Both the position numbers and the translations under genes were made by a program. The notes beneath the pieces were generated by a model, which had not been told where the DNA came from, did no database searches, and saw only the letters and a program-made list of their open reading frames with translations. From the NCBI GenBank assembly GCA_028689115.1, contig JAQTWV010000001.1:535539-599538 (forward strand): a DNA stretch of 64,000 bases. Direction: 5' to 3'. This document shows, one piece after another, positions 13,102-58,235 of the stretch. Source of the stretch: Candidatus Altimarinota bacterium. Lineage in GTDB: Bacteria; Patescibacteriota; Gracilibacteria; BD1-5; UBA6164. Position 1 is the stretch's first letter, and each line of letters opens with the position of its first letter.

Positions 13102-13135
13102 AAACTCCAGAAATAATTCTAGAGTTTCTTTTTTA
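13102..13135 (-). terminator. gatB terminator
   Basis: Imperfect hairpin AAACTC/GAGTTT with AGAA/TTCT inside. It overlaps the gatB stop (13119-13121). Confidence 0.6.
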
Positions 13136-14552
13136 GTAATTCATTAAATATTTTTGGATTTCATGTTCATTTTGAAGCTTTCATACATTGACCTACTAAA
13201 AATCAAAATATGTTTTCATTTCCAGCTTTATAATCAGCAACTTGTGTTGCATTATCAACTAAAACACTATCAACAATAGCTTCTAACGCTCAAGTATCAT
13301 TTTTTTGTCTTAGGTTATTTTCATCTACTATTATATCAGTTTCTCAACCATTATTAAATAATTCTTCTATAACTTGTTTAGAATTTGTACTTGATAATTC
13401 ATCTCTATTTACTAAATCTATAACTTTTGCTAACTCTTTTATATCAAATCTTAGATCTGTTATATTTTTAATTGTTTCACTTTCATTCATCATTGCAAGT
13501 AAAACAGAAGTAATATAAGCACAAGATTTTTTAGAATCTCAAGTTAAATCTACTAAATTATCAAAATATTCGCTAAGTTCTCTTGTTGTAGTCAAAATTC
13601 TAGCATCATCATCACTTAATTTATAAACTCTCAAATACTTAATTCTTTTTTCTATTGGTAATTCTGGGATTTGTTTTCTAGCTTCAGCTATAAATTCATC
13701 ACTTAAAACAACAGGTAATAAATCTGGTTCAGGAAAATATCTATAATCCATAGCATCTTCCTTACTTCTTTGACTTACAGAAGTTCAAGTATCATCATTC
13801 CAACCTCTTGTTTCTTGATCTATAACTCAACCTTTTTCAAGTATAGAAATTTGTCTTTTTGTTTCATGTTCTACAACTCTACCAATTGCAGCAAAAGAAT
13901 TTACATTTTTTGTCTCAGTTCTAGCTCAAAGTATAGAGCTTCATTCTGGTGCTATAGATATATTTACATCACATCTTAATTGTCATTTTTCCATATCAGC
14001 ATCAGAAACTCATCCTGCTCTCATAAGTTTTTGAAGTTCTCTTAAAAATTCCATAACTTCATCTTTATCATGAAAAACTGGATCTGTAACTATTTCCATA
14101 AGTGGACTTCCTGCTCTATTAAAATCAAGAAGAGTTTTTCATCATGCATGAATAAGTTTTCAAGCATCATTTTCTAAATGCATATGATGTATAGCAAAAG
14201 TTCTTTCAGTTCAATTTACAAGAGTTTTTACAAATCATTTTCAAACTATTGGTTCATACATTTGAGTAATTTGGTATGCTGTCGGATTATCAGGATAAAA
14301 ATAAGTTTTTCTATCAAACTTAGAAATCTTATTTACATCACAATTCATCATCATACCTCAGATAAGTCCAAGTCTAACAACTTCTTTGTTTAAACTAGGC
14401 AACATTCATGGAAATCACATACAAACATTACAAACATTCATATTTGGTTCTTCAGCTAATGCTACTGCATTTTTACATGAACAAAACATTTTAGTATCAG
14501 ATTTAATTCTAACATGGATTTCAAGTCATATCGTTGGAGTATATTTCGTCAT
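13119..14552 (-). CDS. gatB: Asp/Glu-tRNA amidotransferase subunit B
   Basis: GatB, 477 residues (full family length), is the kinase/transamidation subunit of GatCAB, which converts Asp-tRNA(Asn) and/or Glu-tRNA(Gln) to the amidated forms. Seen: IGLEIHVRI at the N-terminus, the zinc-type cysteines CSC and CNVCMGFPG, the catalytic-core stretch [25 protein letters not shown], and [14 protein letters not shown]; the YqeY-like C-terminal domain ends ...[20 protein letters not shown]. GatA and GatC are not in the window. Its presence suggests that Asn-tRNA or Gln-tRNA is made indirectly, so the AspRS at 56212 may be non-discriminating. An unusual inverted repeat lies in its upstream region. Confidence 0.95.
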
Positions 14553-56211: not shown

Positions 56212-57993
56212 TTATTCTAATTCTTCTTTTATTTCTATATGTAATTCGTCAAGTTGTTCTTGATCTATAACGCTTGGTGCATTCATCATCAAATCTTGAG
56301 CTTTTCATGATTTTGGAAATGCATAAACTTCTCTGATATTATTTTCATCTTTCAATATCATCATAAATCTATCCATACCTATTGCAAATCATCCATGTGG
56401 AGGAACTCAGTATTGAAATGCTTCATACATAGCACCAAATTTATCCATAACTTCTTGTTTTTTTCTACCAACCATTTCAAATGCTTTTACAAGAGAATCA
56501 ACATCATGATTTCTTATAGAACCTGAAAGTATTTCAAAACCATTACAAGCTAAATCATATTGAACTGATTTTATAGATAATAAATCATCATTATTAAATG
56601 CTTCAATTCAACCTTTTGGCATAGAAAATGGATTATGAGCAAAATCTATTTTTCCATTTATATCACTTTCTTCAAACATTGGAAAATCTGTTACCCAACA
56701 AAATGATAATAATTTTTTGTCTGCTAATTCAAATTTATCTCTTAAAGCTAGTCTAACTACATTTAATATTTTTACTGCTTTTATATATTCATCTGCTGAA
56801 AAGAAAATCATATCACCATTTTTTGGTTGTAATCTAGCTTCCATTTCAGAAATTTCTGCTTCTCACATAAATTTCAAAATTGGAGATTTTTTTCATCCTT
56901 CTTCATTATCATCATAGATAATATAAGCAAGTCATTTTGCTCAAGCTTTTTGAGCAACTTTTGTTAAATCATCTATTTCACTTCTAGTCATTGTTTTACC
57001 TTCTAATTTAATAGATTTTATAACTCAACCACTTGTTGCAACAGATTTAAAAACACTAAATTCACTATTTGTAAAAATATCAGTTAAATCAACAAATTTT
57101 AATCCAAATCTCAAATCAGGTTTATCAGTTCCATAATTTTCCATAGATTCTTCATAACTCATAGAATAGAATTTACTATCCATTACAGTTTTATCTGAAA
57201 GAGCTCAAACAACATCCTTAATATATCATTCAACAACTGCAAAAATATCAGCTTGTTCAACAAAACTCATTTCGCAATCTATTTGATAAAATTCGCAAGC
57301 ATGTCTATCAGCTCTAGGATCTTCATCTCTAAAACAAGGAGCTATTTGAAAATATTTATCTATTCAACCAACCATTAAAAGTTGTTTATATTGTTGAGGA
57401 GCTTGAGGAAGAGCGTAAAATTTACCTGGGTGTAATCTAGAAGGAATAACAAAATCTCTAGCTCATTCTGGTGAACTAACTGTAAATATAGGAGTTTGAA
57501 CATCTAAAAATTCATGAGCTGTAAACCAATTTCTAGTATAATTTAAAAAACTAGATCTAAACATAACATTATCTAGAGCTTTTCTTCTTCTTAAATCTAT
57601 ATATCTATGTTTGTATCTTATTTCTTCATTTGCAAGTTCTCAGTGGTCATCAAGTTCAAAAGGAGGAGTTTTAGATTTAGATAGTAAAACTGTATTTTTT
57701 ACTATTATTTCTATATCACCAGTTGATAAATTAGGATTATTTTGTCATTCTGGTCTACTTCTAACTATACCTTCTATTTGAATAACATATTCACTTCTAT
57801 AATCTGAAGCATTAGCGTGTGAAGTAGCATCATCTTCTGGATCAAAAACTACTTGAGTTAAACCATATCTATCTCTTAAATCTATAAAAATAATACCTCC
57901 ATGGTCTCTTCTATTACTTACCCAACCAGATAATTTAACAGTTTCTCAAACATTTTTTAAATTTAGTTCGCTACATTTATGAGTTCTTAACAT
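56212..57993 (-). CDS. aspS: Aspartyl-tRNA synthetase
   Basis: Class II synthetase, 593 residues, of the bacterial AspRS type. N-terminal OB fold ([23 protein letters not shown]), motif 2 [11 protein letters not shown], the bacteria-specific GAD insertion domain ([20 protein letters not shown]), and motif 3 [12 protein letters not shown] with the ATP-binding arginine. The flanking [12 protein letters not shown] and [17 protein letters not shown] segments are also conserved. With gatB present it may be non-discriminating and charge tRNA-Asn too. Start [11 protein letters not shown] matches the family. Expression is predicted to depend on the T-box-like leader upstream. Confidence 0.97.
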
Positions 57994-58201
57994 ATTTTTT
58001 AATATAAGGTTATAAATAATAAAGCACAAAGATATTTTAAAAAATATCTTTGTGCTTTTGGTTCAAAATTATTTTGAAAGGTGCCACCTAAAGCAATTCT
58101 TAATTTTATTTTTTTACGAAGTATTTCGACTTCGCGAGGTTCTAATAAGACAAAGTCTGTTCTTCCTCGAGCTCACAGTTGTTTGCTGTTCTAACGCTTA
58201 T
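57994..58201 (-). promoter_or_regulatory. T-box-like riboswitch in the aspS leader
   Basis: Leader of about 208 nt on the - strand. Antiterminator: helix A1 GCTTTAGG (58094-58087) with CCAAAAGC (58061-58054), the 7-nt bulge TGGCACC (58086-58080), helix A2 TTCAAAA with TTTTGAA. The bulge UGGC complements the 3' end GCCA expected of tRNA-Asp (discriminator G73). The 3' arm of A1 is also the base of an 18-bp terminator (58021-58058), so the two folds exclude each other. A stem III-like hairpin CGAAGT/ACTTCG lies at 58117-58134. A stem I of about 60 nt with CGAGG/CCTCG is possible, but I could not place the Asp specifier with confidence. Uncharged tRNA would allow read-through. Confidence 0.75.
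58021..58058 (-). terminator. Regulated terminator of the T-box leader
   Basis: 18-bp stem, half-site AAAGCACAAAGATATTTT, followed on the - strand by a T-rich run; competes with the antiterminator. 345 bp (57994-58338) lie between aspS and ppk2; besides this leader they hold two promoters. Confidence 0.75.
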
Positions 58202-58207
58202 ATTTGC

Positions 58208-58235
58208 ATTATAATTTTATTAAAAAAAATTGCAA
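58208..58235 (-). promoter_or_regulatory. aspS promoter
   Basis: On the - strand TTGCAA (58235-58230), spacer 16, TATAAT (58213-58208). Start near 58201. Confidence 0.6.

Follow-up and report, generated by a model that had tools for sequence, protein, structure and literature searches.

A probable T-box riboswitch with class III-like architecture, a transcription terminator and an asparagine specifier upstream of aspS in a Gracilibacteria genome

Four classes of T-box riboswitches have been described, in which binding of the tRNA is augmented by the IDTM, by stem II or by both (PMC10482949). They are known mainly from Firmicutes and Actinobacteria, with few representatives in Chloroflexi, Deinococcus and some Proteobacteria (PMC2494555); major phyla are claimed by TBDB (PMC7778990). 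No report linking T-box riboswitches with Gracilibacteria, Parcubacteria, Patescibacteria or CPR was found in the open-access literature searched (subscription papers and the TBDB taxon list were outside the scope). The initial annotation of the locus, made without database searches, had likewise known of no T-box from Gracilibacteria.

The locus lies in a window, i.e. the whole stretch of DNA that was analysed, of 64,000 nucleotides from a Candidatus Altimarinota genome. The leader of aspS is most probably a T-box riboswitch that controls this gene by transcription attenuation with tRNA-Asn as ligand. It extends from 58198 to 58021 on the minus strand and comprises a short stem I, stem II, stem IIA, an antiterminator and a terminator (Table 1). 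The initial annotation had placed it at 57994-58201, which was slightly off: the functional leader begins at about 58198, the terminator ends at 58021, and 57994-58020 is the stretch immediately 5' of the aspS start, outside the functional leader. Helix A1, the UGGCACC bulge, helix A2 and a terminator reusing the A1 3' arm, all claimed there, were confirmed on the minus strand; these motifs and the mutual exclusion of the two helices are shown. The short stem I also held. It consists of a 3-bp base helix, a K-turn-like GA/GA internal loop, a 4-bp helix (ACAG/CUGU) and a 7-nt apical loop, CAAACAA, and is too short for a tRNA-elbow module. The internal loop of stem II contains AUUAGA in this copy. 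The window holds a single GGTGGNACC; shuffles of the window gave an expectation of 0.00. Only two copies exist in the 1.23-Mb assembly, each just 5' of a synthetase gene, namely aspS (UGGC) and glyRS (UGGA); some matches in other genomes of the family were chance occurrences inside coding genes. The promoter call TTGCAA-16-TATAAT (58235-58208) is weak evidence alone; chance would yield 2.9 such sites in this region. The identity of aspS is supported by a close homologue that matched the NCBIfam aspartate--tRNA ligase.

Table 1. Features of the aspS leader and associated genes (window positions)
Feature	Position	Strand	Basis or remark
-35 box TTGCAA, predicted promoter	58230..58235	-	Consensus scan, 10/12 matches, 16-nt spacer
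-10 box TATAAT, predicted promoter	58208..58213	-	Transcription would begin just before stem I
Stem I	58170..58198	-	RNAalifold without guidance (20 leaders); pairing counted in 82 distinct leaders
Specifier triplet AAC (Asn codon), apical loop positions 3-5, followed by A (58180)	58181..58183	-	Conserved loop position
Stem II with purine-rich GGAAGAA / UAGUAGA-type internal loop, S-turn-like	58135..58169	-	Conserved in aligned relatives
Stem IIA hairpin, F-box-like CGUAA at 3' end	58114..58134	-	CGUUA in most relatives; pseudoknot partner not shown
Antiterminator helix A1, 5' arm GCUUUAGG	58087..58094	-	Pairs with CCAAAAGC
T-box bulge UGGCACC	58080..58086	-	UGGC complementary to GCCA-3' of tRNA-Asn and tRNA-Asp (both G73)
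Antiterminator helix A2 and loop, UUCAAAAU-A-AUUUUGAA	58062..58078	-	UUCAAAAU (58078-58071) pairs with AUUUUGAA (58069-58062)
Antiterminator helix A1, 3' arm CCAAAAGC	58054..58061	-	Common to antiterminator and terminator
Intrinsic terminator, 17 bp, -19.4 kcal/mol	58021..58058	-	Alternative to A1; A1 3' arm is its 5' foot
aspS, aspartyl-tRNA synthetase	56212..57993	-	593 aa under code 25, 16 UGA=Gly
gatB, amidotransferase subunit of the indirect Asn-tRNA route	13122..14552	-	Over curated cut-off; converted from G000:C3:548660-550090

The closest described system is the class III T-box of Nocardia farcinica ileS (PMC10482949). Both have a short stem I that lacks a tRNA-elbow module, a K-turn-like junction, an apical-loop specifier with a purine after it, and a stem II with an S-turn-like loop, after which come an antiterminator-type element and a UGGN bulge. 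Stem II, the S-turn-like motif and stem IIA with its F-box-like sequence are conserved among the relatives; the IIA/B pseudoknot helix was not demonstrated. Class III leaders carry a Shine-Dalgarno sequestrator and mostly control translation initiation, whereas the leader described here ends in a transcription terminator, and because of this terminator it was named class III-like rather than class III. The predicted apical loop, mostly of 7 nt, also differs from the 5-6 nt of class III, and the CPR leaders precede aspS, ileS, valS, ilvA, ridA and other genes, which they are taken to regulate.

With class I (B. subtilis tyrS type, RF00230) the leader shares the antiterminator/terminator switch, the stem II S-turn and an F-box-like motif, but it lacks the long stem I, the internal-loop specifier and the IDTM. 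RF00230 gave no match at the locus at the gathering threshold (93 bits) and none at E values up to 10. In the 288 genomes of the class, no match exceeded the threshold, and weak matches were obtained in 34 genomes. We read this miss as a limit of a model built on T-boxes with a long stem I and not as biology. As the Rfam model falls short of its threshold, the leader is considered a divergent subtype, a possibility that the initial annotation had raised. Among the strongest weak RF00230 matches, in other genomes of the class, are L304, L306 and L307, which resemble long class I-type T-boxes, carry an apparent arginine specifier (CGC) and precede argininosuccinate synthase-like and ornithine carbamoyltransferase-like genes.

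Of 99 genomes, 98 contained an AspRS relative, and the named contigs that encode a near-identical AspRS belong to Candidatus Gracilibacteria. Many aspS genes of the family are preceded by the same type of leader, and several are without a recognisable T-box. An alignment of 20 leaders, taken from aspS and isoleucine-related genes, was folded by RNAalifold without a supplied structure. The fold contained stem I, the lower part of stem II, stem IIA, A1 and A2, with both-sided changes in 20 of 27 pairs. Since MAFFT alone misaligned the variable stem I helix, a covariance model was built from this alignment. It matched in 81 of the 288 class genomes (E <= 0.01) and in 59 of 380 genomes of the phylum (E <= 0.001). 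In 82 distinct leaders, 94% of the pair cells were standard, and both sides had changed in 31 of 35 pairs; helices 1 and 2 of stem I were paired in 97.8-99.2% and showed both-sided changes. The covariation score reached 0.644, compared to 0.21 for shuffled and <=0.12 for slid controls. Because the alignment of 82 leaders had been fitted to the structure, the unguided fold of 20 leaders is regarded as the independent test. Covariation of the A1/A2 helices and conservation of the bulge in relatives, both of which the initial annotation had expected of a genuine T-box, are thereby shown.

The aspS leader was the best match of the model (162 bits), but it was part of the training set. Terminators were searched with a relaxed scan and controls, as a strict scan (58/100) had missed clear AU-rich terminators. 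A terminator-like hairpin overlapping A1 was present in 70 of the 82 class leaders and at 46 of 410 random control positions; in the wider phylum set it was detected in only 7 of 18.

The specifier, which the initial annotation had left unplaced, was identified as bases 3-5 of the apical loop of stem I, which in most leaders has 7 nt. In all readable synthetase leaders this triplet agrees with the downstream gene: AspRS was preceded by AAC (21 leaders) or GAC (one), IleRS by AUC (24) and ValRS by GUC (4). Further leaders with AUC precede IlvA (4) and RidA (5). These counts are position-based, and a handful of other leaders were unreadable at the expected place. The covariance model contained no gene information, and the gene identities of representatives were checked by NCBIfam. 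Concordance of specifier and gene is thus shown; for aspS the match is to asparagine, by way of the indirect pathway.

The variable base of the bulge follows the tRNA as well, AUC being combined with UGGU in 53 of 53 leaders and AAC with UGGC in 24 of 25. Discriminator bases in the organism's own genome are G73 in tRNA-Asp and tRNA-Asn, U73 in tRNA-Gly and A73 in tRNA-Ile; a bulge C therefore faces G73 (Asn/Asp) and a bulge A faces U73 (Gly). The match of the bulge C to the discriminator G of tRNA-Asp, as initially proposed, held. Since tRNA-Asn carries G73 too, the UGGC base fits both tRNAs alike. The sole mismatch is in genome G019, which has UGGU. An A73 partner had been predicted for it, and this prediction failed: G73 is present in both tRNA-Asn and tRNA-Asp of this genome, which leaves a U-G wobble as the only possible pair. 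The same genome contains a tRNA called SeC(tca) with U73 (L290), probably a glycine tRNA reading UGA.

An asparagine specifier upstream of aspS can be understood from the amino acid metabolism of the family. In bacteria of this sort that lack AsnRS, a non-discriminating AspRS loads Asp onto tRNA-Asn, and GatCAB amidates it (PMC4206432). AsnRS was found above the cut-off in none of 48 family genomes and GatB above the curated cut-off in 46 of them; absence and presence are shown at these cut-offs. The motifs RRDHGG and RPEG are signatures of non-discriminating AspRS. Both are present in the AspRS encoded by aspS, which from its sequence alone appears to be non-discriminating. Control of aspS by uncharged tRNA-Asn is coherent because AsnRS is absent, GatB is present and AspRS is apparently non-discriminating. 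The T-box interpretation of the initial annotation was thus retained with one change, namely that in nearly all relatives the specifier points to tRNA-Asn and not to tRNA-Asp.

In the proposed mechanism, the GUU anticodon of uncharged tRNA-Asn would pair with AAC in the apical loop of stem I, and stem II would brace this contact. The free GCCA end of the tRNA would pair with UGGC of the antiterminator bulge and stabilise A1/A2, by which the terminator would be prevented and RNA polymerase could enter aspS. Charged tRNA would be unable to pair with the bulge, and the terminator would form. The additional AspRS would charge Asp onto tRNA-Asn for amidation to Asn by GatCAB. It is inferred, without binding, transcription or expression data in support, that the leader binds the tRNA, that it rejects the charged form, that regulation runs in this direction and that tRNA-Asn is preferred over tRNA-Asp as main ligand. 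As one relative has GAC (Asp), some species may respond to a tRNA other than tRNA-Asn.

Three other explanations were considered. First, the T-box could read tRNA-Asp through a specifier located elsewhere, e.g. GAC in the terminal part of stem II (ACAGACUUUG). In favour of this are the nature of the gene, aspS, the G73 of tRNA-Asp, the GAC in the apical loop of one relative, and the GAC in stem II of the aspS leader itself. The stem II triplet was rejected as specifier for want of conservation, since relatives have GAUUUA, GAGAAG, GAAUAA and other sequences there. In the apical loop, by contrast, AAC hardly varies, and the leaders of ileS and valS carry AUC and GUC, respectively, at this position. 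This explanation is regarded as highly improbable. Second, the leader could be a degenerate remnant which now acts only as a constitutive terminator. It does depart from the consensus, with AUUAGA for AGUAGA, CGUAA for CGUUA and an A-A mismatch in A1. However, helices, specifier and bulge are intact in all six genus members with a leader that was read, and the aspS leader gives the top match of the model, albeit as a member of its training set, which leaves very little room for a remnant. Third, an ordinary leader-peptide attenuator or a plain intergenic terminator with a chance T-box-like motif can be virtually ruled out: the terminator is real and AT-rich leaders fold readily, but the leader has no ATG and only one GTG frame (about 20 codons) without an Asp run (read by eye), and the shuffles, the covariation, the motif set and the specifier-gene concordance contradict chance. 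Accepting the T-box reading, we turn to the other leaders that were recovered.

A second T-box leader with the specifier AUC (Ile) is located in the same genome outside the window (L113, G000:C3:250055-250203). Downstream of it are a small ORF whose family is unknown and a gene with a CYTH domain; in other members of the genus (L114, L115), too, the leader is followed by a CYTH-type gene. In many isoleucine leaders (L098, L111, L112, L114, L115, L121, L122 and others) the bulge UGGUACC is replaced by UGGUAAC. Isoleucine-type T-boxes were also observed 5' of NUDIX-like, MazG-like and NTPase (DUF84) genes (L122, L123, L126, L131, L132, L116, L100, L133, L134), of which only L122, L131 and L133 were checked with Pfam. 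Such house-cleaning enzymes are not usually tied to amino acid supply. Valine T-boxes (GUC) occur in other Patescibacteria (L175, L176, L178, L180, L181, L191). All precede ValRS except L175, which precedes a small DUF1232-like gene, and four of the six have the 10-nt apical loop AUU(A/C)AUGUCA. Near one ValRS locus of a Patescibacteria genome, a c-di-GMP-II riboswitch was detected above the Rfam threshold (L180:2433-2516, minus strand).

Glycine leaders precede glyRS, the identity of which was confirmed by NCBIfam, and a small membrane-like protein. They carry GGA (once GGG) in the apical loop and a UGGA bulge, and the hairpin beneath the apical loop covaries in a manual alignment. The glyRS leader of the organism itself (L001:1427-1600, outside the window) has an apical GGA, a UGGA bulge and no visible stem II; only about 75 nt are available 5' of its antiterminator, so there is no room for the IDTM. 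Like class II (B. subtilis glyQS), the CPR glycine leaders precede glyRS, read GGA and have no recognisable stem II; they differ from it by the apical-loop specifier and, in this genome, by the lack of space for the IDTM. As the IDTM, stem II or both augment binding in the published scheme (PMC10482949), a glycine leader with neither would be new. This point is less certain, since it rests on manual inspection and an uncertain alignment.

A bolder reading, towards which the evidence tips the balance only slightly, is that T-boxes form a widespread, unreported system in Patescibacteria with two new architectures, i.e. a class III-like leader with termination and a minimal glycine leader without IDTM and stem II, and that the aspS copy monitors tRNA-Asn, on which the indirect AspRS-GatCAB route acts. 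The occurrence of gene-matched specifiers across the Candidate Phyla Radiation bears on the question of an ancient origin versus lateral spread of T-boxes. The glycine leader would show how little RNA is enough for tRNA recognition. T-boxes in the CPR would mean that very small genomes retain direct control by amino acids, and the aspS leader bears on how the supply of asparagine is monitored in a bacterium without AsnRS.
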